A stretch of DNA of 43,225 bases from a virus: IMG/VR virus record IMGVR_UViG_3300034072_001479, positions 1-43,225 of that record; one strand, 5' to 3'. The notes under the pieces were generated by a model. The model saw only the letters and a list, made by a program, of their open reading frames with translations, made no database searches and was not told the origin of the DNA. This document shows positions 2,969-41,330 of this stretch, piece by piece; the first letter of the stretch is position 1, and each line of letters begins with the position of its first letter. The translations under genes were made by a program, and so were the position numbers.

Positions 2969-2974
2969 TTTGTA

Positions 2975-3064
2975 TAGTCAGGACAGGACTCGAACCTATT
3001 TCGTCCTTCCAGATAATTTCTTATCCTAATAATGAAGGGTGTTAACCATATACACCACCTGACT
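2975..3064 (-). tRNA. tRNA-like gene with enlarged anticodon loop
   Basis: Acceptor AGTCAGG/CCTGACT pairs perfectly, D arm GTGT-ATATGGTTA-ACAC, T arm ATAGG-TTCGAGT-CCTGT. The anticodon stem CCTTC/GAAGG (3038-3034 with 3009-3005) closes a 24-base loop instead of 7; the extra part holds a GATAA-GAAA-TTATC hairpin. The anticodon cannot be read safely (ATT or TAT are possible in the 5' part). It could be an intron-containing, decayed or specialised tRNA. It begins at the stop codon of the small gene at 3066. Confidence 0.65.
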
Positions 3065-3065
3065 A

Positions 3066-4143: not shown

Positions 4144-4707
4144 TTATTTAATGATTGTTACGTGGCCTATTTCTTTGTATCGAGCATCTGTGTATTTGTC
4201 TCCAAACCAAATTACCCAAGTATATGTTCCATTTTGACAGATTCTGCCTGCATATGTTCCATCCCATTGTACTGTGTGATCAAAAGATTCCCATACAATT
4301 TCTCCCCATCGGTTAAATATTAACAGATGAAAATCTTGAGGATCAAATCCAGAAGTAAAAACCGGCCCCCAACTATTGTTTACTTCATCCTTATCTGGTG
4401 TGAATGAATTTGGAACATAATAAATTAAAGGATCACATTCGGTAACAGTTACAACATATGTTACTGGTTCGCTAGGACAATTCAAAGCATAATGAATTGC
4501 TGTGATTGTGAATACTCCGGTATCTAACCAAGTAATGGCTACAGGATTTCCATAATAGTACTGTCCATCAACTTGCCATTCTGTTTCTCCACCTTCACTA
4601 GACTCTGCAGAGTACAGAAAGGTTTGTGGTTCATCATTGCATATGGTTATGGATTGTTGCGATAGTGCAACATTGCAACATAATAATATGAATAGAAACA
4701 ACCTCAT
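4144..4707 (-). CDS. Secreted protein with T9SS type B sorting domain
   Basis: Signal peptide MRLFLFILLCCNVALSQ, a PKD/Ig-like beta region (residues about 18-90) and a C-terminal domain of the gliding-motility/CHU_C type: YVPNSFTPDKDEVNN, then LLIFNRWGEIVWES, WDGTYAGRICQNGTYTWVI and a final GHVTIIK. This is the sorting signal for the host type IX secretion system (type B), so the protein should leave through the host outer membrane. Its start overlaps the stop of the gene upstream (TAATG). Confidence 0.85.
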   Translation of the reverse strand: MRLFLFILLCCNVALSQQSITICNDEPQTFLYSAESSEGGETEWQVDGQYYYGNPVAITWLDTGVFTITAIHYALNCPSEPVTYVVTVTECDPLIYYVPNSFTPDKDEVNNSWGPVFTSGFDPQDFHLLIFNRWGEIVWESFDHTVQWDGTYAGRICQNGTYTWVIWFGDKYTDARYKEIGHVTIIK

Positions 4708-5270
4708 TAGTTATGCGATATTGGTGATAAGGTTGGTGTTGGATTAACAGTGACTGTGGTAGTTGTTGTGAATGTACATCCTCCTTGAGTAAATGTATAT
4801 GTTAATGTAAATGTACCAGGTCCTGCTGTTTGAGGACAAAAAGTATTTCCTACTACACCCGTACCAGTTAGAACACCACCAGCTGGAGTTGTAGTAACGG
4901 GAACACAAGCATCTGTATCACAGAAAGGTCCCAATGCTGTTATTGTAGGGTTAACTAGCAATATGAACACATCCAATGTTGAAGGTGGAGAATCACATCC
5001 TGTACCATTTGATGCTACAACACTTACACCATTTGGTATCAGGCCTGGTGCTGCATTCGACCAATCAACTCCAATCTGATTGGTTCCTTGCCCCGATGTG
5101 ATTGTACCAGGTGCTGCTACAGTCCATGTGTAGGTGGTACCCGGAGTATTGGTAACTTGATAAATAGATCCGGGGGTTTGGTAACATACCGTATCAGGGT
5201 TAATAGTGGTTAGCTGTGTGAAAGCAAATGTGCTTGTTAAAAGACTTAAAGATAATAGTAACTTTTTCAT
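4707..5270 (-). CDS. Secreted Ig/PKD-like repeat protein
   Basis: Signal peptide MKKLLLSLSLLTSTFAFTQ followed by Thr/Pro/Gly-rich beta-sandwich sequence of the kind found in large Bacteroidota surface adhesins (PGTTYTWTVAAPGTI; later GPGTFTLTYTFTQGGCTFTT). It ends without a sorting domain; the next gene (4144-4707) supplies one. Four Cys may form disulphides. The two proteins could form one surface or virion complex, or be the parts of a formerly single adhesin. Confidence 0.7.
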   Translation of the reverse strand: MKKLLLSLSLLTSTFAFTQLTTINPDTVCYQTPGSIYQVTNTPGTTYTWTVAAPGTITSGQGTNQIGVDWSNAAPGLIPNGVSVVASNGTGCDSPPSTLDVFILLVNPTITALGPFCDTDACVPVTTTPAGGVLTGTGVVGNTFCPQTAGPGTFTLTYTFTQGGCTFTTTTTVTVNPTPTLSPISHN

Positions 5271-5870: not shown

Positions 5871-7112
5871 TTAATTCGATAAAAGTGCTTTAATTGTTGG
5901 GTGTGATTGATAGTTTTCGATTGTAAAATCAGAAGGCTTCATTTGTCTAATGTAAGCATCAAATGATTCTTTCCTCACTTCTTTTGCGTTTTCAGTTGTC
6001 CAACTTTCAATAAACCATCCAAAACTTAGTTTAGGTAGTGGATATGGTTCTCTCGTCATTTGTTCCTTTGCTTGTTCAATATGATTCAAATACAAATGAA
6101 CATCACCTAAATTCCCAATCAATTCATCAGGAACCATATTAACTTCTTTTGCTATGATTTCTAATAACAAGCCGTAAGATGCAATGTTGAATGGTAAACC
6201 TAAGAATGTATCTACTGAACGTTGATTCCACATTAGAGAAATTGCTCTGGTTGGGATTCCGATTTGATTAAAGTATTCTTCTTTTGATATCCCCATATCA
6301 TCTCTCCATTTAGAGACAGGGTATGTTTCTTTGTTTCCTCTTCTATATTGTGACCTTTCTTCCAAACTCAACTCTCTAGTATAAACTTGAAAACCATAAT
6401 GACAAGGTGGTAACACCATTTGATCTAATTCACCTACATTCCAAGCATTAACCATTAGTCGTCTTGAGTCTGGGTTTGTTTTAAGGTCGTTGATTAGGTT
6501 TTTGATTTGGTCTAAAGAATTATTTTGATATTCTATCTTAACGCCATATTTGGTAACATCCTCACCATTGTTAATTGCTTCAAGTACTTTAGGCTGGTCA
6601 GAACCTTTTACATCCTTTAGGTCATAATTTATTACATTCCGTCTTCCCCAACTTCTCCATTGTTTACCATACACAGGACCTAAATCACCCCACTTCTTTG
6701 CGAACTCTGCATCTGTTTTGATTTTGTTGATGAACTCTTCTTGTGTGTATTGTATCGGTCTAACTGAGATAAGATTATCACTCAATAGCGGTCCACCTGT
6801 ATTAGATGGGGGTGAAGTGTGACTTTTACAATAGTTCTTATAAGCATCACCATCCCAAATATGACAATCATTATCAACAAGGTATTTGATATTTGTATCA
6901 CCATGTAGGAACCATAACAATTCTGTTGCTATAAGACGGAATGGCATTCGTTTACATGTTAAAAGTGGAAAACCGTCTGACATCTTGTGTCGAATCTGTC
7001 TTCCAAATACTGAAATTACTTCTCCGTTTCTGGTTTGTTTTTTAGTTCCGTTTTCTAAAATATCCTCTAATAATTTATTATATTGGGGATCTAAATTGTT
7101 TTTCTTTTCCAT
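5871..7112 (-). CDS. thyA: Thymidylate synthase, long form
   Basis: Converts dUMP to dTMP using methylene-tetrahydrofolate. Catalytic Cys is in VLPPCHYGFQVY (about residue 237); DSRRLMVNAWN (phosphate-binding Arg pair), RSVDTFLGLPFNIASYG and GDVHLYLNH are intact. At 413 residues it is about 150 longer than bacterial ThyA; the extra sequence lies near residues 90-140, 165-210 and 250-280 and contains no intein motifs. Its start overlaps the end of a GIY-YIG gene by 22 bases. Confidence 0.95.
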   Translation of the reverse strand: MEKKNNLDPQYNKLLEDILENGTKKQTRNGEVISVFGRQIRHKMSDGFPLLTCKRMPFRLIATELLWFLHGDTNIKYLVDNDCHIWDGDAYKNYCKSHTSPPSNTGGPLLSDNLISVRPIQYTQEEFINKIKTDAEFAKKWGDLGPVYGKQWRSWGRRNVINYDLKDVKGSDQPKVLEAINNGEDVTKYGVKIEYQNNSLDQIKNLINDLKTNPDSRRLMVNAWNVGELDQMVLPPCHYGFQVYTRELSLEERSQYRRGNKETYPVSKWRDDMGISKEEYFNQIGIPTRAISLMWNQRSVDTFLGLPFNIASYGLLLEIIAKEVNMVPDELIGNLGDVHLYLNHIEQAKEQMTREPYPLPKLSFGWFIESWTTENAKEVRKESFDAYIRQMKPSDFTIENYQSHPTIKALLSN

Positions 7113-7762
7113 ATATAACCGTATCCTTTTTTTGTTATTCCTCTTAAATTAGCTGTTATAGTAGTTGGGTCACATCCAAGATATGCAGCTGCTACTTTTG
7201 TACCCTCCCATTCTTTAATAAAATTACCTTCTAAATCATATTGTAAAATGGGTTTCTGTTGCTGTTTAGCCCATGTTTTATAATCTCTATTAGGTGTTTT
7301 TCCTTTTTTCCCTTCGGATATTTTACGTTTAGTTTCTTCAGAGATATTTTGTTTAGCTTTACTTATATTTTGTTTATGTTCTTCTGTTTTAGGTTTTCTA
7401 AGTTTTTGTTTTGTTTCTTCAGAGCGTTTTTTACCTTTGGCCCCTTCAGAAATTCTCTGTTTTGTTTCTTCACTCCTAGGTCCTCCACTACTATCAAAAT
7501 AATCACAATTTAAACCATCTTCTACTGAGGTGTAATATTTTTTCCAATAGTATTCTCTTTCATGTAGTTGTTCTTTTAAGCATTCTTCAATAACTTCAAA
7601 TGTATGGTTTTCTACACCATACCCTTTTAATGAATTTAAAATTTTCCTTCCAGCTGAGCGTTTGGCTAATCTTTTATATTCTTTAAATCTTCGTTCAATA
7701 TTAATACTTTGCCCAATATAAACTTTACCTTTTGGGTTTGTAATTTTATATATTCCTACCAT
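7091..7762 (-). CDS. GIY-YIG homing endonuclease
   Basis: N-terminal nuclease domain MVGIYKITNPKGKVYIGQS, Lys-rich middle with several NUMOD3 repeats (SEETKQRI, SEETKQKL, SEETKRKI), then the C-terminal VAAAYLGCDPTTI and GYGYIWKRK DNA-binding motif. It is free-standing (not in an intron) and overlaps the thyA start by 22 bases, a usual place for such genes because thyA is conserved among phages. Motif ATATTTATAATAAAA precedes its start. Confidence 0.92.
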   Translation of the reverse strand: MVGIYKITNPKGKVYIGQSINIERRFKEYKRLAKRSAGRKILNSLKGYGVENHTFEVIEECLKEQLHEREYYWKKYYTSVEDGLNCDYFDSSGGPRSEETKQRISEGAKGKKRSEETKQKLRKPKTEEHKQNISKAKQNISEETKRKISEGKKGKTPNRDYKTWAKQQQKPILQYDLEGNFIKEWEGTKVAAAYLGCDPTTITANLRGITKKGYGYIWKRKTI

Positions 7763-10268: not shown

Positions 10269-10504
10269 TGTATTTTTTTATATGTAACTGATTTTACTTC
10301 CTGGAGTTTTTTTTGCTCATAATATTCAAGATAATCTTTTGCTGCCCTAATTGCCTCTTCTTCTGTGAGAATGTCTTTATATATGTCTTCCCATACAATC
10401 TGTGGGCGTTTAATCCAACCTCCTGTTATTTTAAGATTGGCTTGCTGAACACCATAACTTTTTTCTCCATTATTTAAAGTTGATATTTTAATTCTGAGCT
10501 CCAT
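10265..10504 (-). CDS. Hypothetical protein, 79 aa
   Basis: Starts MELRIKISTLNNGEKSYGVQ; strands followed by a helix with EEEAIRAAKDYLEYY-like pattern (TEEEAIRAAKDYLEYYEQKK). Unrecognised; coupled to its neighbours. Confidence 0.6.
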   Translation of the reverse strand: MELRIKISTLNNGEKSYGVQQANLKITGGWIKRPQIVWEDIYKDILTEEEAIRAAKDYLEYYEQKKLQEVKSVTYKKIQ

Positions 10505-10511
10505 TTTATTT

Positions 10512-10766
10512 TTATTTATAAACAGTCGGTCCTTTATGTGGAATAAACTTTTTCATCATGAAAAATATGTTTTGATATTCTTTTAACCTATCTCTTAGTT
10601 CATTTGAATATTTATCTTTTTTGCTAATCACATAAACAAGAAAATTTAATTTCTCCTCGATAGTGATGTTTTGTAAAGATCTCGGTAGTTCTTTGTTAGG
10701 ATCTTGCAAATGTTCAAGTATTTTAATACCATTTTCATACTTGTAATCTCGATTATGAAATGCCAT
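10512..10766 (-). CDS. Hypothetical protein, 84 aa
   Basis: Starts MAFHNRDYKYENGIKILEHL; basic, helical, with a central IEEKLNFLVYVISKKDKY segment. No motif known. In the operon downstream of the metallophosphatase. Confidence 0.6.
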   Translation of the reverse strand: MAFHNRDYKYENGIKILEHLQDPNKELPRSLQNITIEEKLNFLVYVISKKDKYSNELRDRLKEYQNIFFMMKKFIPHKGPTVYK

Positions 10767-10770
10767 TTTG

Positions 10771-10995
10771 TTAACTTCTTATAAAACGATTAGTAGTATA
10801 TTCTTTACCTTCAACTGGTATCTTATCATACCATTCACTGTAGGGACGAGCGTGCCATCCTCCAAATGAAAGTGAACGATAAATTACAAGTTCTTCATTT
10901 GTTTCTGTATGATTACACATACAAACTATTTCATATTGGCCACCTTTATAATGTAGCCATCTTTCTCCTGGTTGTGGGTAGTGCATATTTTTCAT
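10771..10995 (-). CDS. DUF1653 domain protein
   Basis: 74 residues with the DUF1653 pattern: PGERWLHYKGGQYEIVCMCN, then ETNEELVIYRSL, RPYSEWYDKIP and a final TNRFIRS. DUF1653 is a small beta-rich domain found in bacteria and phages without a known reaction. Starts two bases after the phosphatase gene's stop region, so part of the same operon. Confidence 0.8.
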   Translation of the reverse strand: MKNMHYPQPGERWLHYKGGQYEIVCMCNHTETNEELVIYRSLSFGGWHARPYSEWYDKIPVEGKEYTTNRFIRS

Positions 10996-10996
10996 C

Positions 10997-11794
10997 TTAA
11001 ATATATTTTACAATTGTACAATAATCAACACTAAATTCACCATCTACCTCAACAAGATATTCACCAGATGGTAAGGTATCAATATAATAATATTTACCAC
11101 CTGTAGTTTTACCTTTAATATCAATAGAATTCTGTACTGTATGTCCTACGATTTGGGTATACATTTTCTTTATATCTTCGTTTTTGTTTGCTCGTTGTAA
11201 TGAGTTAGGTCGAATCCAAATTGGTGATTGTTCTTCATTGTTACCATACCCATCAACAAACCCCATATACCGGTCCACATAAGAGTTAAATGTAAACTCG
11301 TTTGGTTTGTATTTAAACAAGGCATTCAAAAACTCTGCTACATGAGATTCATCTCCATAATCATGTGTCCAATAACCAACATCTTTTAAAAACTTCGCAC
11401 TTACACCAGCGTGTGTACACAATCTACGATTAATAGTTGTACCCAAAGAAACTGCCATTTGAAACATATCTTCGTTTTCTCTAAAGAATTGCTCAAACTG
11501 AAACATCATGGTAGGTTGGAATCCTGAAGTTCCTCCTCTATCTTTTACACCTGGCCAATAATGGATGTCGTGGTTGCCAATGAGCAGGTATACTTTTTTG
11601 GATGGGTCTAGTTCTTGAAATTTTTTAAACTCTACTATGTCTTGAGCATTACGGAGTTGGGTTAACCCTGCTAGATCATAAGAATCAAAATAGTCTCCTA
11701 TGAAAACAATATTGTCGGCATCACCATGCTTTTCAACAATTTGTTTCCAAACATCAAGACCGTGAATATCTCCTATGTAAATGTTTTTAGACAT
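10997..11794 (-). CDS. Calcineurin-like metallophosphatase
   Basis: All metal-binding motifs of the family are visible in order: GDIHG (residues 8-12), GDYFDS (about 33-38), GNHD (about 73), then THAG (about 127) and GHT (about 218). Such phage enzymes are Ser/Thr or nucleotide (ApaH/PrpE-like) phosphatases; the substrate is not clear. Normal length at 265 residues. It is the first gene after promoter-like sequence at 11815. Confidence 0.9.
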   Translation of the reverse strand: MSKNIYIGDIHGLDVWKQIVEKHGDADNIVFIGDYFDSYDLAGLTQLRNAQDIVEFKKFQELDPSKKVYLLIGNHDIHYWPGVKDRGGTSGFQPTMMFQFEQFFRENEDMFQMAVSLGTTINRRLCTHAGVSAKFLKDVGYWTHDYGDESHVAEFLNALFKYKPNEFTFNSYVDRYMGFVDGYGNNEEQSPIWIRPNSLQRANKNEDIKKMYTQIVGHTVQNSIDIKGKTTGGKYYYIDTLPSGEYLVEVDGEFSVDYCTIVKYI

Positions 11795-11814
11795 ATTTTC
11801 CTTTTCTTTTTATA

Positions 11815-11846
11815 CTATAATATATAAAAAATATTTTAAATATCAA
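11815..11846 (-). promoter_or_regulatory. Weak phage promoter P5
   Basis: TTG, 19 bases, TATATTATAG; lacks the usual TTTCG before the box. Lies 21 bases before the phosphatase start and overlaps the recombinase stop. Confidence 0.5.
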
Positions 11847-12640
11847 ATGGGAAGATTAACTTTGTTTAAAAGTTGATTTGAAACGTGTGTATAAATCTCT
11901 GTTGTTTTGGAGGAGGAATGACCTGCAATTTTTTGGATAATTCTTAGATCTGTTCCATTTTCCAAAAGATTAGTAAAACTAGAATGTCTTAGAGTATGAA
12001 TAGATGAGTTTGGATCAATATAACGTTTATACATTTTTTGACAACTCCCTACAGAATATTTTCTTCCCTTTTGACCATTGAATAAATACTCTTTTGGTTT
12101 ATATTCTAAAAAATATTTTCTCAACATTTCTAGTACTGTTTGTGATAATGGTACTATTCTATCTTTTCTTCCTTTGGCATTTTTAATATGGATTAACATT
12201 CGCTTAGAATCAATATCTTCTATTTTAAGATTAACTATTTCGGAAACACGGAGTCCAACTGAAAATGTTAGGGTAAGGATTGTTTTGTGTTTTAAATTTT
12301 TGATTTTGTTAAGTTGGGATTTGATAAATTCGCTATCAATAACTCTAGGTAGTTTCTTTTCATTCCTGGGTCGTTCTACTTTGGATAGGTGTACATCTTT
12401 CTTATTCAGGACATATTTAGCAAATAATTTCAAACATCCAATATATTGATTTTGTTGAGAGGTGGATGTGAAGTTATATGATTCCAAAAACTTAACAATC
12501 TGATTTGTTGTAATTTGGTATGGGTCTTTTATGTTGTTATGTTGTAGAAAAGTCTTAAGATATGATTTATACACATCAATTGTTCGAGGTGAATAATTTT
12601 TGTATCTTAATTTTTCTGTAAAAATTTCAAGAATCTTCAT
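11843..12640 (-). CDS. Tyrosine recombinase, integron-integrase-like candidate
   Basis: 265 residues with an N-terminal SAM-like core-binding domain (LRYKNYSPRTIDVYKSYLKT) and a catalytic domain holding all key residues: Arg in GLRVSEI, Lys in KNAKGRKDRIVPL, HTLRHS, and His/Tyr in AGHSSSKTTEIYTH. It lies next to the cassette array and on the same strand, at its downstream end. It lacks the extra roughly 20-residue insert typical of IntI between the Lys and HxLRH, so by itself it reads as XerC/D-like; the neighbouring attC sites are what suggest an integron role. Its ATG lies directly after a GTTACAA sequence. Confidence 0.9.
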   Translation of the reverse strand: MKILEIFTEKLRYKNYSPRTIDVYKSYLKTFLQHNNIKDPYQITTNQIVKFLESYNFTSTSQQNQYIGCLKLFAKYVLNKKDVHLSKVERPRNEKKLPRVIDSEFIKSQLNKIKNLKHKTILTLTFSVGLRVSEIVNLKIEDIDSKRMLIHIKNAKGRKDRIVPLSQTVLEMLRKYFLEYKPKEYLFNGQKGRKYSVGSCQKMYKRYIDPNSSIHTLRHSSFTNLLENGTDLRIIQKIAGHSSSKTTEIYTHVSNQLLNKVNLPI

Positions 12641-12701
12641 TTGTAACTAGTTGATTTTTAATGAGTTAAATGTGGTTACATATATATAAGAGTTATAAAA
12701 C
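12641..12701 (-). other. Degenerate attC-like site of cassette 6
   Basis: Right after the stop of the gene at 12703 the minus strand reads GTTTTATAAC, which is the reverse complement of that cassette's own first bases (GTTATAGAAC) with one mismatch, as expected for an R'' site. A GTTACAA candidate R' lies at 12641-12647, immediately before the recombinase ATG. Inner pairing (TGTAAC/GTTACA) is poor, so the site may be decayed. Confidence 0.4.
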
Positions 12702-12702
12702 A

Positions 12703-12834
12703 TTAAGGTTTAACTTTCTTCAATGCTCTAATTTTTCGCTTACGTGTATTTGTGTAAGATTTAATTGCTTTTCTGTCTTCCACATCTAAGTGTTTTAACT
12801 TTTCCAAATGTGGTGCTTTATGTTTTATTTTCAT
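12703..12834 (-). CDS. Cassette 6: basic small protein, 43 aa
   Basis: MKIKHKAPHLEKLKHLDVED, then RKAIKSYTNTRKRKIRALKK: very basic and helical, possibly nucleic-acid binding. It starts 19 bases after the GTTATAG end of the previous attC. Not recognised. Confidence 0.55.
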   Translation of the reverse strand: MKIKHKAPHLEKLKHLDVEDRKAIKSYTNTRKRKIRALKKVKP

Positions 12835-12846
12835 AATATTAACGTT

Positions 12847-12968
12847 CTATAACAACAAATATAAAACATTGCTGTCGTGGTTTCTATATATTATACGTTT
12901 AATTTCAAATTTTATTACATTTATTTACATTCGTGTTGCAACGTTTTATATTTGCAAACGTTATGTGC
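12847..12968 (-). other. attC site 5
   Basis: 122 bases on the minus strand from GCACATAAC to GTTATAG. Arms TTTGCAAATATAAAACGTTG and the matching CAATGTTTTATATTTG pair with one mismatch; the AT-rich centre is about 60 bases. Begins 5 bases after the stop of the gene at 12973. Confidence 0.8.
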
Positions 12969-12972
12969 AAGG

Positions 12973-13221
12973 CTACGGAAGGAATACCACATCAACTTTG
13001 TCGCCCTGTTTTATTCTACCTTCCATCTTTGAATATTGGTAAGGTAGTTTCAATTTCAAATAACCGTGATTGCTTTCTACTGTAAATCCACTTTCTTCAA
13101 CTGTAAATTCAAGTGCGTTATTTCTTCTCAATCCATCTGTAATAATGGTTATTTGTTCAATAGCTTCTTGTTTTGTAATTTCGTGGCTACAAAGTTTTTC
13201 AATTATTTCTTTTACTTTCAT
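12973..13221 (-). CDS. Cassette 5: hypothetical protein, 82 aa
   Basis: Starts MKVKEIIEKLCSHEITKQEA (helical) and continues with a beta-rich part (LEFTVEESGFTVESNHGYLK, then GDKVDVVFLP). Unknown family; the second half looks like a small beta barrel. Starts 45 bases inside the cassette. Typical of integron cassette genes, which are mostly unknown. Confidence 0.7.
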   Translation of the reverse strand: MKVKEIIEKLCSHEITKQEAIEQITIITDGLRRNNALEFTVEESGFTVESNHGYLKLKLPYQYSKMEGRIKQGDKVDVVFLP

Positions 13222-13258
13222 CGTTTCAAATTAAATTTAGTGCTGATAAACCGCCCAG

Positions 13259-13325
13259 CACATAACAGCGGTTTGGCGCAATCACAATCATATTCGAGGT
13301 GCGCCAAGCCTCAAAACGTTAGGCA
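13259..13325 (-). other. attC site 4
   Basis: 67 bases, minus strand GCCTAAC ... GTTATGTGC. Arms GGCTTGGCGCA / TGCGCCAAACC with a short loop; GC-rich against the AT-rich genome. R'' GCCTAAC matches the RYYYAAC consensus and contains the stop codon of the gene at 13319. Confidence 0.85.
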
Positions 13326-13453
13326 CAATAACCCCAGAATAACCATCTATATATTTTAGGGTCACCTTGTTTCCACGTTATTCTATTGAGCCATACTGGT
13401 CTCCAATATTGATACCATGCTCTTGGTGCGTGTTTATGTATCCAAATTTTCAT
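13319..13453 (-). CDS. Cassette 4: Trp-rich small protein, 44 aa
   Basis: MKIWIHKHAPRAWYQYWRPV then a Trp/Arg-rich tail ending FWGYCA. The stop TAA is part of the attC core GCCTAAC. Seven Trp in 44 residues is unusual; it may insert in membranes or be a chance frame, but the cassette has no other gene. Confidence 0.5.
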   Translation of the reverse strand: MKIWIHKHAPRAWYQYWRPVWLNRITWKQGDPKIYRWLFWGYCA

Positions 13454-13468
13454 ATTATAAATTACTGT

Positions 13469-13564
13469 GCCTAACAACGTATATAATGGATACGCCAATA
13501 AGCGGTTTTACATTTATTTAAATTTATCGGTGGCGTACCCATCATATACGCAGCCGTTAGTGGC
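13469..13564 (-). other. attC site 3 (best example)
   Basis: 96 bases, minus strand CACTAAC ... GTTAGGC. R' GTTAGGC fits GTTRRRY exactly. The arms GCGTATATGATGGGTACGCC and its partner GGCGTATCCATTATATACG pair over about 20 bases with two mismatches and a few unpaired bases; a 22-base AT-rich centre separates them. Confidence 0.9.
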
Positions 13565-14072
13565 AATGTAAAGACGACCATATCGCTGAACAGTAACCAA
13601 CTTGAAAATAACAATCTGAAATAGCATTGTGAGCAGTCCCAACAGATTTAAAGTTGTTTTTTATTTCAGGATTGAAACTTACAAGTGTTCTAACACATCT
13701 TTCTTTTCTAAAATCCCACGGAATAGGAATACCAGCTTTATTATAAGCATTTTGTAAAATCCCACAATCAAATCTTGCTGAATTACCCCATATTTGATAA
13801 TCCTTATTACAAAATTGTGAAAACTCTAAAAGTGCTTTTTGAATAGGTAAAACCATTCCTTCAGTCAAATCTTTTTTTGCTTGTTCATTTTGATTTATCC
13901 ACCACATAATAGTTGAAGCATTTACGATTAAACCTAAATCCATACAGCTTTGTAAATCTACATTTACATAAAATTCTTTTCCAGTCTTACCTGTTTCAAT
14001 ATCAAATTCTAATGCCCCGATACTTACTATACTTGAAAAACTTTCGTTTCCCATAGTTTCAATATCTAACAT
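13557..14072 (-). CDS. Cassette 3: DEDDh 3'-5' exoribonuclease-like protein
   Basis: Begins MLDIETMGNESFSSIVSIGA: exonuclease motif I (DIET). Motif II is NSARFDCGILQNAY and motif III AHNAISDC (HxAxxD), the DEDDh arrangement of 3'-5' exonucleases, resembling small Rv2179c-type RNases. A longer frame upstream to 14153 only crosses the attC site, so the ATG at 14072, 27 bases into the cassette, is chosen. The stop lies in the attC core CACTAAC. Confidence 0.85.
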   Translation of the reverse strand: MLDIETMGNESFSSIVSIGALEFDIETGKTGKEFYVNVDLQSCMDLGLIVNASTIMWWINQNEQAKKDLTEGMVLPIQKALLEFSQFCNKDYQIWGNSARFDCGILQNAYNKAGIPIPWDFRKERCVRTLVSFNPEIKNNFKSVGTAHNAISDCYFQVGYCSAIWSSLHCH

Positions 14073-14091
14073 TAAGTGACCAAATACACTG

Positions 14092-14226
14092 CCACTAACA
14101 TCGGTTTTGCAAAACGGTGGGTTCTGTGCTAATTCTGTACTTTTGTTTTTCATTTTATCTTTAGTTTAAAATTGAACATTTGTTTTTCAAAATCCACCGC
14201 TTCGCAAAGCCGAGAACCGTTATATG
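14092..14226 (-). other. attC site 2
   Basis: 135 bases, minus strand ATATAAC ... GTTAGTG. Arms CGGCTTTGCGAAGCGGTGG and CCACCGTTTTGCAAAACCG pair over 19 positions with few mismatches; the long centre is AT-rich. Begins 11 bases after the stop of 14237-14545. Confidence 0.85.
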
Positions 14227-14236
14227 AAATGTTATT

Positions 14237-14545
14237 TTAGATTTTGAGTTTAATCATTTTACAAATCATATCAAATTCATCCATAGTATTACATTCACCA
14301 TTAAACTTAACAGAGTGATTTGGACTATCTTGATTAAATCCATTATCTGTTGTTATAAGTTTTACTGTGTATGTATTGAATGAATGATTTTTACTATCCA
14401 TTTCATATTCAGTTTTTTTAGTTTTCACATATAGAAAAGCACCTTGTCCATCATCTTTCCATACATCACCTTTTTCAAATTTCATTTCGTTGTCAAACTC
14501 AAAACTGAATTTCCAACCCTTTTGTTCAAAATCTTCTTTTTTCAT
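14237..14545 (-). CDS. Cassette 2: hypothetical protein, 102 aa
   Basis: MKKEDFEQKGWKFSFEFDNE, then beta strands (GAFLYVKTKKTEYEM; YTVKLITTDNGF) and a C-terminal helix (DEFDMICKMIKLKI). Possibly a small cytoplasmic alpha/beta protein; not recognised. Confidence 0.7.
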   Translation of the reverse strand: MKKEDFEQKGWKFSFEFDNEMKFEKGDVWKDDGQGAFLYVKTKKTEYEMDSKNHSFNTYTVKLITTDNGFNQDSPNHSVKFNGECNTMDEFDMICKMIKLKI

Positions 14546-14585
14546 ATATTCTTCTTTTATTTGTAAAATCTAAAATAACACATTC

Positions 14586-14641
14586 ATATAACAAATGATA
14601 AACAACATTAAAACGATTGTTTATCATCGGACGTTAGCTGC
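14586..14641 (-). other. attC site 1
   Basis: 56 bases, minus strand GCAGCTAAC ... GTTATAT. Compact form with arms GATGATAAACAA / TTGTTTATCATT (11-12 pairs) and an 11-base centre. Starts 3 bases after the stop of the gene at 14644. Confidence 0.8.
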
Positions 14642-14643
14642 AA

Positions 14644-14916
14644 TTAAATTTTTTGCAGTTCGCTATTCAATTGGTTTCTAATTTCAATCCGTTCGGGCGT
14701 TTCATCTTCGGGGTAATATGTTACACCATTACAAGTGCTTCTGTATTTACCACCAAATCCAAGTTTTCCACAAAACCGCCACTCTCTACATCCATACTTA
14801 TCATCGCAATGGTGGTATATAAAACTACTTCTATCTTCTTCATTTGCACCACCAATTGAAACCAAAAGGTCATACACTTTATTTGCTTTGTCTTTACTCA
14901 AATGTTTTGTTTCCAT
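14644..14916 (-). CDS. Cassette 1: hypothetical protein, 90 aa
   Basis: METKHLSKDKANKVYDLLVS, then GGANEEDRSSFIYHHCDDKY and WRFCGKLGFGGKYRS; His/Cys residues hint at metal or disulphides. No function is known to me. A TTG-started longer frame runs across the junction at 14937; the ATG at 14916 fits cassette layout (21 bases from the junction). Confidence 0.7.
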   Translation of the reverse strand: METKHLSKDKANKVYDLLVSIGGANEEDRSSFIYHHCDDKYGCREWRFCGKLGFGGKYRSTCNGVTYYPEDETPERIEIRNQLNSELQKI

Positions 14917-14930
14917 AATAAAGTTACGTT

Positions 14931-14963
14931 TGCTAACAAGGTATATATGCAATACCCTATTAA
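14931..14963 (-). other. attI-like first cassette junction
   Basis: Upstream edge of cassette 1: minus strand ATACCTTGTTAGCA, preceded by a small inverted repeat GGTAT-TGCATAT-ATACC. GTTAGC matches the R'' complement of cassette 1, so the crossover point is placed at 14937. No long attC palindrome is present, which fits an attI-type site. Confidence 0.5.
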
Positions 14964-15000
14964 GGTTTATATTTAATTTATTACATTTTTTTCAGGTTGT

Positions 15001-15270
15001 CTATTTATATTTCACCATTAAAAATCCTACATACTGGGGGGATGTTGATCTAGCAGCAACTGTTTCTTGTACTTGATAACCTTTAGACAAGTACTTATAC
15101 ATATTTTTTGTTCCTACCACATAAACTGTATTTAAAGGTTTGACAGGAATTGTATATTCAATGTTAGTATTATTATTTCTCTTTTTTGCATCAGATTGAG
15201 AAACTGACAACATTGTGGAAAATATAATTCCACATATAAAGGCTAATGTTATATACTTAATGTTTTTCAT
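15001..15270 (-). CDS. Small exported or membrane-anchored protein, 89 aa
   Basis: Hydrophobic N-terminus YITLAFICGIIFSTMLSVS acts as signal or membrane anchor; the rest is polar with a few strands (VYVVGTKNMYKYL). Last gene before the cassette array. Unrecognised. Confidence 0.6.
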   Translation of the reverse strand: MKNIKYITLAFICGIIFSTMLSVSQSDAKKRNNNTNIEYTIPVKPLNTVYVVGTKNMYKYLSKGYQVQETVAARSTSPQYVGFLMVKYK

Positions 15271-15271
15271 A

Positions 15272-15838
15272 TCAAATCTTTTTAAGTATTAAGCAGCCAT
15301 TTGAATCGAGTTTAGGTCTATATTCTGGTCTTTCTTCTCCTTCTTTGGGCATATTTGCTGGGTAATATATTTTTTCTGTTTCAATTTCAACTCTTATTTC
15401 ATTAACTTTATTTTTGTGTTCTAAAATATAATCAATGTTATTTAAAATGTTATTAACATAATCAGGTAGTGTTAAATCTTTTTCTTCTCTACTTTTTTTA
15501 GCAATTTCAAGCATAAGTTTTTTAACTTCATTTATAGTAAATACCTTATCTTTATTCAACTCCATTGCTTTGTTGAAGCCCCAAACAACCCCAGAATTTC
15601 TTGCCAACCAAGATTCTTCATCACCTTGATTAGGAAATCTTAAATCAGCATCTTCTTTAGCCAACTTCTCAACATCGACAACTCCAAATATCTCGTCACA
15701 GTTTTGTTTGGAGAGTTTTTGCTCAAATATTTCTTCATCAGGATTTAATGATGCTACAAGTGCTTCCGAATTATCAGTTCTTGAAACAAGGAAATAATTA
15801 TAATCTCCTCTATGCTTTAATATTAGTTTTGCTTTCAT
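15272..15838 (-). CDS. Hypothetical protein, 188 aa
   Basis: KLILKHRGDYNYFLVSRTD at the start, a middle acidic region with SWLARNSGVVWGFNKAMEL, and helical C-terminal parts. No known domain. Stop-start overlap with the next gene upstream (15835) shows operon structure. Confidence 0.65.
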   Translation of the reverse strand: MKAKLILKHRGDYNYFLVSRTDNSEALVASLNPDEEIFEQKLSKQNCDEIFGVVDVEKLAKEDADLRFPNQGDEESWLARNSGVVWGFNKAMELNKDKVFTINEVKKLMLEIAKKSREEKDLTLPDYVNNILNNIDYILEHKNKVNEIRVEIETEKIYYPANMPKEGEERPEYRPKLDSNGCLILKKI

Positions 15839-16029
15839 TTTGAATAGGTTTCGTTGTAGTATTGTTCTGCATCTGCTCTTTCATCTTGATCATTCCATCC
15901 ATTATTAGAATAAGCATCTATTATCTGTTGCTTTTCCAACTTCTTAGCATACATAATCATTGCTTCTGTTGGATGATAATTAACTTTTTTAAGCTCTTGT
16001 AATAACCACATTACTGCTGTTTGTTTCAT
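15835..16029 (-). CDS. Conserved small phage protein, 64 aa
   Basis: AVMWLLQELKKVNYHPTEAM, then AKKLEKQQIIDAY: a short helical protein with an acidic, Asn/Tyr-rich tail. Similar small proteins are frequent in phages of Bacteroidota, where they have no known function. Confidence 0.65.
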   Translation of the reverse strand: MKQTAVMWLLQELKKVNYHPTEAMIMYAKKLEKQQIIDAYSNNGWNDQDERADAEQYYNETYSK

Positions 16030-16041
16030 TGTTTTTGTTGT

Positions 16042-16200
16042 TTAAAGGTTAATAATGTTTCCGTATGATGTTAGTCCTTTATCAAATCTTCCATCAAATA
16101 CACATGCAGCATTAGAATAGATAGCATCTCTTGCTTCTTGTTGCTCTTCTATTCCATCAAATTCCATTGTTATCTTCATCTCTTTTTTGTCTTTATCCAT
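16042..16200 (-). CDS. Truncated/recombined paralogue of the 9767 gene, 52 aa
   Basis: MDKDKKEMKITMEFDGIEEQ then QEARDA matches the first 20 residues of the protein at 9767-10009; a run of about 41 bases is almost identical (9956-9999 against 16127-16168). After that the sequence switches to an unrelated tail (VFDGRFDKGLTSYGN). It follows its own promoter at 16221. Looks like a recombination product that still has an open frame. Confidence 0.6.
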   Translation of the reverse strand: MDKDKKEMKITMEFDGIEEQQEARDAIYSNAACVFDGRFDKGLTSYGNIINL

Positions 16201-16220
16201 AACTTTCTTTCTTTTATACT

Positions 16221-16252
16221 CTAAATATATGAAAAATATTTTAAGAATCCAA
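16221..16252 (-). promoter_or_regulatory. Phage promoter P6
   Basis: TTGGATTC, 20-base spacer ending TTTTTCA, then TATATTTAGAG; 21 bases before the start at 16200. Spacer almost identical to P4. Its transcript may run into the cassette array. Confidence 0.8.
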
Positions 16253-16255
16253 AAT

Positions 16256-16750
16256 CTAATCCCAGAATCCTCTAATATCTTTTTCTATCATCTTCCATAG
16301 TATTCTATGTGCTCGATCTTGTTTTTCTTGTGACATTTTGAATAGTTCATCCTTTATCTGTGAGATTTCTTCTGCGTTATCCCATTTCTCATATTCAAAT
16401 TGCATTTTAAACATTGTTGGTTTGGATTTATCTTCAATAAAGTTCACATCCAAAACATTCTCTCCATACATTTCTTTTAGTATTTCCTGGTATTCACAAG
16501 CATAATCATCTTCATAAACTTTATCCATCAACTTAATAATAGTGCGAATACGTTTTGCTGTATCCTTAGCGCACCGAGTGATTGCTTTATCCGATTCTAA
16601 AAATTCTGCTTGTTTTTGAAGTTGAAATTTGAATACCTCGATTGAATAGTGGTAGTCAAAATCATACTGTTTCCAGATGATTGGTAACCATCGGAATACG
16701 TTTCTTATCTGTTGAAATTTACGAGTAAACCAGTATTTTATTTTGGCCAT
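16256..16750 (-). CDS. Conserved phage protein, 164 aa
   Basis: N-terminal FRWLPIIWKQYDFDYHYSIE, a helical middle, and C-terminal KQDRAHRILWKMIEKDIRGFWD. This arrangement (RWLP.IW.D.D.DY at the start, aromatic pair near the end) recurs in phages of many hosts; the role is unknown to me. Overlaps the upstream gene by 13 bases. Confidence 0.7.
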   Translation of the reverse strand: MAKIKYWFTRKFQQIRNVFRWLPIIWKQYDFDYHYSIEVFKFQLQKQAEFLESDKAITRCAKDTAKRIRTIIKLMDKVYEDDYACEYQEILKEMYGENVLDVNFIEDKSKPTMFKMQFEYEKWDNAEEISQIKDELFKMSQEKQDRAHRILWKMIEKDIRGFWD

Positions 16751-26212: not shown

Positions 26213-26233
26213 TAAGGTGGGGTGGGGTGGGTT
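26213..26233 (+). other. G-rich tract, possible G-quadruplex
   Basis: Plus strand AGGTGGGGTGGGGTGGGTTA: G runs of 2, 4, 4 and 3 separated by single T, striking in an AT-rich genome. It starts in the last codon region of the glycosyltransferase gene and fills part of the spacer before promoter P13. The leftward transcript here is C-rich. Confidence 0.6.
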
Positions 26234-27296
26234 AGGAAAGTTTTATGAGATCTTTTTGATATTCTGTTAGTGAGTTTATTGTTATTTTTAAATTTCCTAA
26301 TTCAAATTCTCCTATTTCTCCACTATCTTTGATTATAGCATTTAGCTGTTGAATTATTTGAAAATCTTGTTGTGAGAATTTGTTTCCATCTATCTCTACT
26401 ATTATATCCTTCCCCTCATTAAACCATGGTTCTAGAGCTTGTTTTAGTTGAGGGTTTGGGTTAACTAACTTATAGGTTTTTTTATAAACAGGTGATACAA
26501 TGGGTTTCATCATATTAGTATGTTGAACATTTGTACCCCATTTTTTAATGAAAGCAATAGTTGATTTATCCATATCTTCCTTCCATTTTTTATGTCTTTG
26601 CTCATCTCCATCAAATGAACCTGCTCCTCTACCCGTAAAATGATAAACAAACCCACTCCATGTTTGGACAAATCCAAACCCAGCTAAATCCATCCTATTA
26701 AAAATATCAGAATCTTCTCTACAAGAGTGAAGGATTGGATCATGTCCACCTAGTATTTCCAAATATTCTTTTTTGTACATCATCCAAGGTGCAAATATAC
26801 CTTCTGTGGTTGGGATTGTTGGGTTATATTCTTTAACATATTTGTTAAATTCATCCTCTTTAAATTCTTCAGGGTACACCCCAAAATCTTCTAATATTTT
26901 TTCTCCGTTATTTGGATGTAAAGGTGGTTCAATACGAGTTGCACATACTACTGTTTTTTCTTTCAAGTGTTTATACAACTCATAATCAGCATTTGGGGCC
27001 AAAATCATATCAGCATGGAATATCATGAATATGTCTGTGGTTGAATGTTCAATACAATAGTCATATGCTTTTCCAATTCCAAATAAACTTTTACCCAAAT
27101 TTGGATTTACAAAGTACTTTAAATTATATTCATCTTTTACTTGTTCTAACCACTCTACCGTCCCATCTTCATCAGAATCAACGAATATTATAATTTCATG
27201 GTCTTTTCGGGATGCATTTTCTCTAATTGAGGGGATACAAGTTTTAAGGTATCTTAAGTTTGATTTACTTGGGATGCAAAAGGTTATTTGTTTCAT
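26232..27296 (-). CDS. Family 2 glycosyltransferase with C-terminal extension
   Basis: GT-A domain: MKQITFCIPSKSNLRYLKTC, FVDSDEDGTVEWL (nucleotide site) and the DxD-like FHADMI about residue 96; DPILHSCREDSDIFNR then FVYHFTGRGAG are acceptor/metal motifs of the family. Residues 265-354 are an added domain (DIIVEIDGNKFSQQDFQIIQ). It adds a sugar to a glycan, lipid or virion protein. Last gene of the surface-sugar operon, overlapping its upstream neighbour by 4 bases. Confidence 0.85.
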   Translation of the reverse strand: MKQITFCIPSKSNLRYLKTCIPSIRENASRKDHEIIIFVDSDEDGTVEWLEQVKDEYNLKYFVNPNLGKSLFGIGKAYDYCIEHSTTDIFMIFHADMILAPNADYELYKHLKEKTVVCATRIEPPLHPNNGEKILEDFGVYPEEFKEDEFNKYVKEYNPTIPTTEGIFAPWMMYKKEYLEILGGHDPILHSCREDSDIFNRMDLAGFGFVQTWSGFVYHFTGRGAGSFDGDEQRHKKWKEDMDKSTIAFIKKWGTNVQHTNMMKPIVSPVYKKTYKLVNPNPQLKQALEPWFNEGKDIIVEIDGNKFSQQDFQIIQQLNAIIKDSGEIGEFELGNLKITINSLTEYQKDLIKLS

Positions 27297-28144
27297 AATG
27301 ATTGGAGGGCTAAATTAAATATATGTTTAGTATCATTATTAATTTGAGTTAATTTTTCAGAATTATATTTAATATAATTTACATAAATGGGATTATTTAA
27401 ATATTTTCTATTTTCTTGTATAGTGATACCCTTCATAATATATTGGGTAGCATTTAATTTTTTGGATGATTCTGCTATAAATGTATCTTCTAATCCATAC
27501 CCTTTAACATCTGATGGGAATTGAATTTGGGATATTAATTTAGAACTTATAGTAGTAAACCAACCACCTGCAAACTTTATATTTTTATTTTGAATTAATT
27601 CAACTTCTTGATTGATTGCTTTTACTATAAAAGGATCAACTGCATTTACATCAGTCCCATCGTAAGGTAAATAACTTAAAGAATCCCATGATTGGTCCCA
27701 AAATTTATAAACTTGTGGGGATATAATGTATAAATCTTCTTTTACATGTTCAAGCGTTTCTTGTAAATAATAAAAAATATAATCATTAAATATTACATCT
27801 AGATCTAATAAAATAAATCCATCATATTGATCTGTTAATGTTTGTAAGTATACTCTTTGATCAACAATACCCCAATATTTGTCTGTGTGATTTATTTCAA
27901 TTTTATTTTCATTAGTCCAATCAAATTTAGTTAGTATATGATTAAATTTATCTAAAATAAAATCTTTAGAAAGAATACTTTTATCCCAATCAATAATTTC
28001 AGTGTTAAGATTTAAAACAATATGAGTATCTATCAACATGTTATCTGAGGTATATTTAGATGCTACTTTTAATTGGGAAGCAATATTATCAAAATCATCT
28101 ATTTCTCTAGGGAATATATGGAGTAAAAGAAGAAATTTTTTCAT
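27293..28144 (-). CDS. Glycosyltransferase-like protein
   Basis: Carries GFILLDLDVIFNDYI (DLD at about residue 112, a metal-binding DxD), then GGWFTTISSKLI and YGLEDTFIAESS, the order of motifs seen in GT-A transferases. N-terminal MKKFLLLLHIFPREIDD is a buried strand rather than a signal. Low GC compared with neighbours. The family is not certain; the operon and the DxD support transferase activity. Confidence 0.65.
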   Translation of the reverse strand: MKKFLLLLHIFPREIDDFDNIASQLKVASKYTSDNMLIDTHIVLNLNTEIIDWDKSILSKDFILDKFNHILTKFDWTNENKIEINHTDKYWGIVDQRVYLQTLTDQYDGFILLDLDVIFNDYIFYYLQETLEHVKEDLYIISPQVYKFWDQSWDSLSYLPYDGTDVNAVDPFIVKAINQEVELIQNKNIKFAGGWFTTISSKLISQIQFPSDVKGYGLEDTFIAESSKKLNATQYIMKGITIQENRKYLNNPIYVNYIKYNSEKLTQINNDTKHIFNLALQSL

Positions 28145-29001
28145 AATTTGATTAGTTTATTAATTAATTGTTGTTTTTTAAAAGGTGTAATTTCTAAATC
28201 ATCATATGTTGATTGTTTGAAATCACAATATTCTTTACATATTTCTGAACCATGGAGTGAGGTAAGTTTATCTTTCCAAATGGTATTATGAGTTACCATA
28301 GCATGGATTTCTTCATTACTCCATTCAAATGTTTTTCCATCATAACCATTTGATATACCATTATCACCATATCCAACTACTATTACTTTATCAAATCCCA
28401 TAAACCAAAGTAATTGAAATAAAATACCAGATACATTACCGCCAGGGATTAATTGGAGTGGATTAGTGCCATATCCAATAATACTTTCTGGGATGTCTGG
28501 GCTTAATGGGGGATAAGATTCACCTTGTTCATTTCTATATTCGATACAAAGGTGGGTGTTAGGTGTTGATTTGCAATATTCTTCTCCATGATGTTTGGGT
28601 AATTGACCTGTTGTAAATGAATAATTATAAATTGGAAATTCATTACAAGCAATAACTTTAATTAAGTTAGGATTTTGTTGTATAATTTCTTTTTTACCTT
28701 GTATCCAAATTGGTTCAGAATCATAATTAAATCCTGCTTGATTTCTAAGTAATTTCCCACCAGTAAATTTAAATAAACAAAATTCTTTATCTTCAAAGTA
28801 TTCTCTTGCAATTGAATTATCAGCAGTAATATACATATCACAATTTGGATATGTTTTAATATTATGGTTTACAGTAATGGTAAAGTTATTAGAAATAATA
28901 TCTTGGATGTCTTTAACTTGGTTAGTTGAAGGACCTCCTAAAATACAAAACGCCGTATGACCTTTTGCTATACCTTTCCAATTATCATTTATATAACTCA
29001 T
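28141..29001 (-). CDS. Maf/DUF115-like protein (PF01973-type), candidate nonulosonate transferase
   Basis: AFCILGGPSTNQVKDIQDII and FTITVNHNIKTYPNCDMYIT match the Rossmann-like start of 6-HMPK/MAF_flag10 proteins, with GGNVSGILFQLLWFMGFDKV then IVVGYGDNG later. Maf proteins of this domain attach pseudaminic or legionaminic acid to flagellin; a transfer role would fit the CMP-sugar genes just upstream. Its acceptor is unknown. Confidence 0.6.
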   Translation of the reverse strand: MSYINDNWKGIAKGHTAFCILGGPSTNQVKDIQDIISNNFTITVNHNIKTYPNCDMYITADNSIAREYFEDKEFCLFKFTGGKLLRNQAGFNYDSEPIWIQGKKEIIQQNPNLIKVIACNEFPIYNYSFTTGQLPKHHGEEYCKSTPNTHLCIEYRNEQGESYPPLSPDIPESIIGYGTNPLQLIPGGNVSGILFQLLWFMGFDKVIVVGYGDNGISNGYDGKTFEWSNEEIHAMVTHNTIWKDKLTSLHGSEICKEYCDFKQSTYDDLEITPFKKQQLINKLIKL

Positions 29002-29183
29002 TTATTATTAGCTAATTTTTTAGATAATTCATTTATAAGATTATCATCATTAGTAATTCTCTTAAATACTTCTCTTGTTTCTTCAGGAGCATGAGTGAAT
29101 GCTATACGTAAAATGTCCATCCAATTTACATTGTTTTTACCTCTTACTTTCTGGATTTCATCAATAATTTCTAAATCAGTCAT
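28998..29183 (-). CDS. Small protein of the sugar operon, 61 aa
   Basis: MTDLEIIDEIQKVRGKNNVN then WMDILRIAFTHAPEETREVF. Short helical protein; very similar small genes accompany nonulosonate genes in other genomes as I recall. Overlaps its neighbour by 4 bases and is preceded by the GNAT gene at one base. Function unknown. Confidence 0.65.
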   Translation of the reverse strand: MTDLEIIDEIQKVRGKNNVNWMDILRIAFTHAPEETREVFKRITNDDNLINELSKKLANNK

Positions 29184-29184
29184 A

Positions 29185-34341: not shown

Positions 34342-34342
34342 G

Positions 34343-35503: not shown

Positions 35504-35505
35504 GT

Positions 35506-37586: not shown

Positions 37587-37602
37587 AACTTTTAATTTGA
37601 TA

Positions 37603-37632
37603 AATTATACGAAAGCCTCTTTAAGAGGCCAA
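37603..37632 (-). promoter_or_regulatory. Promoter P14 with hairpin in its spacer
   Basis: TTG, then GCCTCTTAAAGAGGCTTTCG (20 bases), TATAATTTATC; 17 bases before the start at 37586. Spacer nearly identical to P11 although 17 kb apart. It would drive the surface-sugar operon and end the transcript of 37640. Confidence 0.85.
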
Positions 37633-37639
37633 CGTTTTT

Positions 37640-38086: not shown

Positions 38087-38109
38087 ATTTTTTTATTTTA
38101 ATATATTAA

Positions 38110-41328: not shown

Positions 41329-41330
41329 GT

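Follow-up and report, generated by a model that had tools for sequence, protein, structure and literature searches.

The window analysed here is a 43,225-nt stretch of viral DNA (IMG/VR record IMGVR_UViG_3300034072_001479). It carries a tyrosine recombinase gene and, adjacent to it, six small genes that we likewise found on the minus strand; one of the six encodes 59 aa from a TTG or 44 aa from an ATG. A sequence-only reading had described a phage-borne array of integron-like cassettes with the recombinase next to it, a view that our analysis supports, and such arrays are present in many related contigs. The features are as follows, with strand where one was assigned.

11843..12640, minus strand: tyrosine recombinase gene, 265 aa, of an insert-less sister lineage of integron integrases
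12678..12695, plus strand: attI-like site of putative function, a TATATATAA box and then the core G|TTA (GTTA at 12692-12695)
12693..12960: cassette 1, gene 12703-12834 (43 aa) with attC 12850-12963
12850..12963: attC-like hairpin 1, 114 nt (scan score 14.8)
12961..13318: cassette 2, gene 12973-13221 (82 aa)
13263..13321: attC-like hairpin 2, 59 nt, weak (read by eye; under the score threshold)
13319..13556: cassette 3, gene about 13319-13453 (44 aa)
13472..13559: attC-like hairpin 3, 88 nt (scan score 15.6)
13557..14219: cassette 4, Rv2179c-like 3'-5' exonuclease gene 13557-14153 (Pfam PF16473, E 9.9e-55), with its ATG and N-terminus inside attC 4
14096..14222: attC-like hairpin 4, 127 nt, bearing a start codon (hairpin scan)
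14220..14633: cassette 5, gene 14237-14545 (102 aa)
14589..14636: attC-like hairpin 5, 48-nt mini-attC
14634..14963: cassette 6, gene 14644-14952 from TTG, or from an ATG near 14916; closed by a half-deleted sixth attC at about 14934-14963 (core 14934-14937), where the array ends

The site starts proposed earlier were correct within 3 to 4 bases. The feature at 12641, earlier called a decayed attC, is more plausibly the attI-like site, and the full consensus match claimed for hairpin 3 holds for GTTRRRY on the R' side but not for RYYYAAC on the other. Our analysis of the window turned up no structural gene.

Hairpin sites in the window and in related phages

A scan without spacers scored three array sites at 8.2 to 9.2 and three places elsewhere at 9.6 to 10.8, returning 12 rows on both strands against 2.7 in shuffles. 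As it failed to pick out the array, unpaired spacers beside the core were permitted in the next scan. This purpose-written scanner, made after the sites had been seen, returned exactly four TAAC/GTTA hairpins scoring at least 10 on the 43-kb coding strand, all within the claimed array and none elsewhere. The chance level in 40 dinucleotide shuffles was 0.83 sites at this cut-off and 0.025 sites at 14 or above, where three were observed. The coding strand of hairpin 3 folds as DNA at -20.5 kcal/mol. An Rfam search of 10500-16500 gave a single match, to an lncRNA family with an E value of 2.6, which we took as chance.

Individual hairpins recur elsewhere. Hairpin 1 has an 89.9% identical stretch in the huge phage record LR756500, a near-identical copy of hairpin 4 precedes different genes in L184 and L185, and the 48-nt type of hairpin 5 is found in 22 of 80 phage loci, including L003, which is the window's own phage. 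These 80 loci, all from viral contigs, are the relatives of the recombinase that we retained. Forward-oriented sites lie almost entirely upstream of the recombinase (342, or 0.80 per kb) rather than downstream (12, or 0.021 per kb), and at least one is present in 57 of the 58 loci with more than 1.5 kb of upstream sequence; one long locus, L061, has none. The phage-locus scan returned 286 sites against 4.5 in shuffles, 256 of them unique, and repeatedly sampled phages (e.g., L029-L031) were kept in the locus counts. Chance sites are commoner in real control loci than in shuffles: three isolated phages with integrases related to this recombinase and 10 Xer loci gave four scattered sites, scoring 12.0 to 12.6, in 89,764 bases. 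LR745206 has hairpins, and whole-record searches for the recombinase found none there and only an 88-aa fragment in LR756500. A terminase was detected in 22 of the 50 contigs tested, some matches being weak.

An attI-like motif lies between the last cassette and the recombinase in 66 of the 69 phage loci examined (of 80; those omitted are mostly near-copies and loci that begin at the gene), by a loose pattern that the array-less L061 matches too. Phage cassette genes face attI, with attC at the 5' end of the gene; the canonical layout, in which transcription would run outward from attI and attC follows the gene, was not found in the phages and is found in their bacterial relatives. At 132 long sites we counted 87 ORFs of at least 30 codons that cross the core from a start codon inside attC, compared with 4 at 104 short sites and none at 10 mini-sites.

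Unit boundaries and cassette exchange

The two ends of a unit are complementary across the gene, with values of 0.61 to 0.84 at outer positions 1-6 and 8-11, and the two half-sites of one site pair at the random level (phage, n=176). Bacterial arrays show both of these features too (n=58). In either set, R'' and R' are brought back together over the gene within one cassette unit. Since a gene's two ends match each other and not the neighbouring half-site, the genes were shuffled at the hairpin core.

The hairpin and gene of cassette 5 recur in L187 at 94% aa identity, with breaks at TAAC on both sides. Relatives of cassette 2 in L192, L193, and L194 diverge immediately past ...CACATAAC; upstream, the hairpin is reduced to its right end in L192 and is not seen in L193, L194, or L195. 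The relatives of cassette 2 thus do not keep its hairpin whole. Because arrays vary between related phages and cassettes have moved with breaks at the predicted core, the relatives do not carry the identical arrays that had been named as evidence against the integron-like reading.

Few cassettes are common to different loci by whole-cassette DNA comparison. Among 194 phage gene segments we found only four homologous, non-identical pairs, little material for seeing which hairpin accompanies a gene. The upstream hairpin alone is kept in two of them at the 99% background level, or in one if the level is set at 95%; another pair comes from a single phage sampled twice, and one retains neither hairpin. 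No cassette is common to the 194 phage and 51 bacterial segments (tblastx, E 1e-5). Of 150 phage cassette proteins, matches to Pfam covered nine families with one protein apiece, and matches to PADLOC covered 58 families, the 25 matches listed all being to methyltransferase models with one protein each.

The recombinase and its bacterial relatives

The recombinase scores 151.7 bits against the IntI profile TIGR02249, below the cut-off of 265. Two segments of about 23 aa of the Shewanella IntI are missing from it, profile positions 178-255 fall in a gap, and the IntI-specific insertion in the catalytic domain is absent. R131, K156, H215, R218, H241, and Y250, which we take to be the catalytic residues, are invariant among the aligned recombinases. 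In our tree, array recombinases are sister to IntI and outside it, and together with IntI they are set apart from XerA/C/D at 100/89, with two XerA chains sampled; grouping with these two XerA chains gave a p-AU of 0.044. The phage recombinases form their own clade, inside which two contigs binned as bacteria also fall. The array recombinase shares its fold and domain organisation with XerA, XerC, and XerD (XerA 5hxy, Z 16.2, rmsd 10.7 over 251) but belongs to a separate clade. In five of five Bacteroidota genomes it is encoded by a gene distinct from those for XerD and for a further Xer that we took to be XerC, three genes in all. The IntI-specific insertion is said to be essential (PMC8138268). 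We found no published description of this lineage in the literature searched, a set that excluded bioRxiv and most subscription journals.

Chromosomal arrays of Bacteroidota (L084-L163, L270-L281) have a homologous recombinase (41 to 52% identity). Their hairpins agree in geometry with those of the phages, and a motif resembling the phage attI-like one occurs in 22 of 78 bacterial loci, 50 to 160 bp behind the recombinase. In the attI orientation, phage hairpins match the bacterial ones in spacer asymmetry and in the A and C beside the core, and both have C opposite A at outer position 7. Unlike in the phages, the bacterial genes face away from attI, which is the canonical polarity, the recombinase gene and the array are oppositely oriented, and many of the proteins are extended at the N-terminus by about 75 to 100 aa. 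By our own count, members of the recombinase family scoring at least 204 bits occur in 48 of 60 genomes from the family of Flavobacterium limicola. Thirty short genome loci, whose flanks were too short for arrays to be judged, gave 10 sites (2 in a single round of shuffling); 12 longer stretches taken in their place, two of them shortened by contig ends, gave 16 against 0.33, with at least one site in 9 of the 12 and at least two in 3.

A proposed phage-native exchange system and its alternatives

The array is not a canonical integron. It shares with canonical integrons an adjacent tyrosine recombinase, mostly one-gene cassettes, an array of unrelated small genes, hairpin attC-type sites with a GTT core between genes (identified here with our purpose-written scanner), and an R box reunited in the circular cassette. 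It differs in a recombinase of a sister lineage without the IntI insertions, in reversed cassette genes with an attC that often bears the start codon, and in spacers of 5 and 2 nt, which are mostly equal in the few sites of Shewanella and Vibrio control integrons under the same scan. The earlier proposal of an integron-like array stands with three qualifications: the recombinase is not an IntI, the cassette polarity is reversed, and parts of integrons had already been described from phages (Qi et al. 2023, PMC9892861).

The array, its geometry, the unit boundaries, the shared and reshuffled cassettes, the flipped polarity, and the phylogeny can all be read from sequence, and the explanation that we consider best, with considerable confidence, is that large Bacteroidota phages have a native system of integron type, in which recombination would act as follows. 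The 265-aa Xer-type tyrosine recombinase, of a lineage next to IntI, would catalyse recombination between a hairpin attC, presumably folded as a single strand, and the putative attI-like site (TATATATAAGAG|TTA) that lies a short way upstream of the recombinase gene, with strand exchange predicted within the conserved core C-G|TTA (attI orientation). Together, attC and gene make up the mobile unit, which as a circle would regain TAAC and a matched outer stem of roughly 11 bp. Newly acquired units would insert beside the recombinase, pushing older units outward. The cassette gene is flipped relative to attC: it is read toward attI and in line with the recombinase, which makes attC the predicted 5' leader of the gene. 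In about two-thirds of the long sites, attC contains the start codon and would add to the gene product an N-terminal peptide that continues in frame through the core.

That a phage captured a canonical bacterial integron, as in published cases, seems highly improbable. The general layout and core are indeed integron-like, and canonical IntI does occur in phages: Qi et al. (2023, PMC9892861) describe phage integrons as captured bacterial ones or integrase-less attC clusters, reporting three complete integrons plus a cassette-less integrase in temperate phages, 17 integrase-less clusters (CALINs) in phages, and use of five of six phage attC sites by IntI1 in an assay. Against capture stand the low IntI score with two missing IntI segments, the separate phage clade beside IntI (its two bacteria-binned contigs included), and the opposite gene polarity. 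Arrays of attC type in phages are common to that study and ours, and the part of it drawn on here describes no distinct phage recombinase lineage. In its Bacteroidota example with a reported attC cluster, Polaribacter phage P12002L, we found four scattered scanner matches of mixed geometry against 1.0 in shuffles, with no cluster, and no recombinase of the array type.

We give very little credence to the hairpins being MITE-like transposons, terminators, or other repeats between genes, near an ordinary phage integrase. The hairpins are short and some are repeated, as with the 48-nt type, and recombinase relatives from isolated phages (33 to 36% identity) are mostly annotated as integrases. Yet the sites are almost confined to one side of the recombinase, complementarity runs across the gene and not across the hairpin, the loosely defined attI-like motif recurs, and the control loci yielded only scattered sites. 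It is unlikely, if somewhat less so, that the arrays are relics, once mobile and now fixed as operons with hairpins as leaders or regulators. Contig L003 matches the window without a difference over 16.8 kb, half of the last attC in the window is deleted, and some arrays lack the recombinase. In contrast, cassette order differs between the near-identical phages L048 and L051, L067 has a perfect second copy adjoining attI, contig ends close to the recombinase fall on its array side in 24 cases versus 6, and the recombinase ORF is full length in all 80 loci (263 to 271 aa).

With the phage-native system as the preferred explanation, we lean toward the broader view that integron recombination is older and wider than IntI: an insert-less sister lineage would run chromosomal arrays in Flavobacteriaceae and an autonomous exchange network in large Bacteroidota phages, where attC would double as a plug-in leader giving captured genes a start codon and an N-terminal tag. 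Apart from the integrons of Chlorobi and Ignavibacteriae, a single complete one was reported for Bacteroidetes with IntegronFinder 2.0 (PMC9024848), as against a recombinase family in most of the genomes counted here. The system described here bears on whether the IntI-specific insertion is required for folded-attC recombination or arose later. The cassette arrays point to a large pool of small phage genes, mostly uncharacterised. If the model is true, these phages would have their own gene-capture platform, not a borrowed one, and a means by which viruses could swap genes quickly. The attC leader would let any gene be dropped in and expressed at once, and a reversed cassette with an attC-borne start codon would be a new solution to the expression of captured genes.

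The array in the window

The window's record is a complete linear IMG/VR entry and probably a genome fragment. Its minus strand runs from a half-deleted attC through six small genes to a tyrosine recombinase, and the intergenic hairpins carry TAAC/GTTA cores. The features referred to are as follows:

~14934-14963, minus strand: half-deleted attC
13263-13321: fifth, weaker hairpin
11843-12640, minus strand: tyrosine recombinase of 265 aa

We scanned the 43 kb for sites with both cores and an inner inverted repeat. Four were found, all within the array, where shuffles led us to expect 0.83 at the cut-off score and 0.025 at the score met by three of the four; a stricter first scan of the window did not set the array apart. 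In the array sites, including the fifth, which was read by eye, the inner stem begins 3-4 nt farther from TAAC than from GTTA. The scanner was written after the sites had been seen, and the checks on it are shuffles, the unequal site counts on the two sides of the recombinase, and control loci.

The window also encodes a thymidylate synthase, homing endonucleases, and sugar genes; none of the structural genes tested for was found in it. The thymidylate synthase (5871-7112, minus strand; 413 aa) covers only ~280 profile positions and thus appears to contain an insert of some 130 aa; next to it, at 7091-7762, is a gene for a GIY-YIG homing endonuclease. A gene run at ~26232-43025 (minus strand) matches glycosyltransferase, aminotransferase, and nucleotide-sugar functions. 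Two neighbouring proteins (4144-5270, minus strand) carry a CHU_C type IX secretion signal domain and a PKD-like domain, which are Bacteroidota surface features, here on a phage contig. ARAGORN places a 92-nt tRNA at 2974-3065 (minus strand), adjoining a tRNA-Met (2894-2968); its TTA anticodon corresponds to the TAA stop codon, and it may be a suppressor or, alternatively, a tRNA-Leu/Ser that was mis-set.

Arrays in viral contigs and bacterial genomes

Of 182 viral-contig relatives of the recombinase, we retained the best 80; the contigs are mostly fragments with inferred hosts. These loci (1,063,131 bases) hold 286 sites, 256 of them unique, against 4.5 in shuffles, and sites are present in 69 of the 80. 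With the score threshold lowered slightly, forward-oriented sites have a density of 0.80 per kb on the upstream side of the recombinase (342 sites) and of 0.021 per kb on the downstream side (12 sites). Where more than 1.5 kb upstream was available, 57 of 58 loci have at least one site and 54 at least two; the sole exception, L061, has no upstream site. The controls, 13 loci (89,764 bases) from three isolated phages with related integrases plus ten Xer loci, gave four sites scoring 12.0-12.6, which is above the shuffle expectation. Of 50 contigs tested, 22 match a terminase with an E-value of 0.001 or lower, several of them weakly. Hairpins are also present in two huge-phage records, LR756500 (462 kb, L234), where the recombinase is only a fragment, and LR745206 (634 kb, L235), where no recombinase was found; both may borrow the enzyme of the host or of another phage.

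Among genome loci, we sampled the best 80 of at least 547, mostly from Bacteroidota. They contain 108 sites against 2.5 in shuffles, with at least one in 43 of the 80. In the family of Flavobacterium limicola, 52 of 60 genomes have a recombinase match at E 1e-45, and by our own count 48 of 60 reach at least 204 bits; a lower-scoring group, at 190 bits or less, includes XerD genes. Twelve of these places, read at greater length, yielded 16 sites against 0.33 expected, at least one in 9 of the 12. Domains encoded by bacterial cassettes include GmrSD, HEPN, PIN, RES, and MerT, from a search with 44 of the 46 proteins; only a few of the phage cassette proteins searched (150, out of 165 ORFs with a length of at least 55 aa) have any match.

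Breakpoints and the mobile unit

In 176 consecutive phage site pairs, the outer 11 bases at one end of a gene complement those at its other end (0.61-0.84 at each position other than outer position 7, a near-constant mismatch), while the two halves of a single site pair at random level. Pair by pair, 150 favor the same-gene reading, 18 the other, and 8 tie; bacterial arrays show a like pattern (58 pairs). Since ends match across the gene and site halves pair at random, the units have, by their sequences, been shuffled at the hairpin core.

The sequence-only reading had proposed an integron-like cassette array, and the arrays of related phages bear it out: cassette order is not fixed, and units recur with breaks at TAAC. 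Two phage loci, L048 and L051, are 97% identical from the recombinase onward and share cassettes in changed order, one standing beside the attI-like site in L051 and within the array in L048. The hairpin and gene of the window's cassette 5 are found together in L187, and the match breaks off at TAAC on either side. For the cassette 2 gene, divergence in L192, L193, and L194 begins directly behind TAAC; upstream, L192 retains the hairpin end only and L193-L195 no hairpin. The window's hairpin 4 stands before different genes in L184 and L185, and L067 has a perfectly duplicated cassette gene, the second copy beside the attI-like site. Contig ends within 2.5 kb of the recombinase number 24 on the array side and 6 on the other in 80 phage loci, and 38 and 9 in 80 bacterial loci, an excess expected of variable or repeated arrays. 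Against array variability counts the identity of the window and L003 across 16.8 kb. The window's cassette 6 also occurs in a second contig, which stops 16 bases past the gene, exactly at the next TAAC core (L189:3306-3322); this stop may reflect arrays that vary within the population. A relative of the cassette 5 gene (L188:2900-3291, 82% identical) lacks hairpins and lies behind the apparent 3' end of a tRNA gene.

In 66 of 69 phage loci looked at, using a loose pattern for the box, TAAC closes the last gene, and a TATTATATATA-like box stands between it and the recombinase; the opposite strand reads TATATATAATAG|TTA. Of the 78 bacterial loci long enough to show it, 22 have a TATATACAAG|TTA-like motif at a distance of 82-116 bp behind the recombinase. 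We read both motifs as candidate attI, where units would insert.

Oriented by the candidate attI, phage hairpins follow the bacterial pattern, TAACA...CGTTA with the shorter spacer first. Outer position 7 has C in 74 of 101 bacterial and 189 of 245 phage hairpins, and the base facing it is A in 94 of 101 and 237 of 245. Bacterial cassette genes point away from attI (44 forward, 2 reverse, and 5 without ORF; n = 51). Phage genes share the recombinase strand (166, versus 7 and 2; n = 175) and therefore face attI, so that the mobile phage unit would be attC then gene. Homologous gene segments lend this thin support. Among the four phage pairs that are not identical, the upstream hairpin alone is kept in two when judged at the 99% background level (in one at the 95% level); another pair is the same phage and has both hairpins, and the last has kept neither. 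In bacteria, the one pair retains its downstream hairpin.

The start codon often lies inside the hairpin loop of long phage sites (113-151 nt). ORFs of at least 30 codons that start there cross the core 87 times at 132 long sites (phases 64, 21, and 2), 4 times at 104 shorter sites, and never at 10 mini-sites. The hairpin encodes the first residues of the window's exonuclease; the stretches surrounding six exonuclease relatives (L174-L176, L180-L182) had no scanner match.

A recombinase beside IntI

The best NCBIfam match of the recombinase is the XerA/integron-integrase model (191 bits; cut-off 220), and the IntI model scores 151.7 bits, below its cut-off of 265. The enzyme lacks two segments of ~23 residues found in Shewanella IntI. 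Its AlphaFold model (pLDDT 77, pTM 0.54) aligns with XerA 5hxy over 251 positions (Z 16.2, rmsd 10.7) and with the integron integrase 2a3v over 245 (Z 14.9, rmsd 7.8). In two trees, phage and bacterial array recombinases form a clade adjoining IntI and separate from XerC and XerD; the second also separates them from XerA, represented by two chains (support 100/89), and supports the clade itself at 83/96. The phage enzymes fall into a single clade, joined there by L084 and L087, two contigs that were binned as bacterial. An N-terminal extension of ~75-100 aa is frequent in bacterial array recombinases (L084-L163) and absent from phage enzymes. One Ignavibacteria bin (L126, L213) encodes a canonical IntI (439 bits) alongside an insert-less recombinase, which has one site of bacterial geometry behind its gene.

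Qi et al. 2023 (PMC9892861) report from temperate phages three complete integrons and an integron integrase that stands alone; they also describe 17 clusters without integrase. According to Smyshlyaev et al. 2021 (PMC8138268), the IntI insertion is essential for integron function and incompletely conserved in its own subgroup. The paper on IntegronFinder 2.0 (PMC9024848) gives one complete integron in Bacteroidetes, that of Salinibacter ruber, with others in Chlorobi and Ignavibacteriae. We found no account of the insert-less array recombinase lineage in the literature searched. Judged on sequence, the phage system appears to work as integrons do, but its recombinase falls outside IntI.
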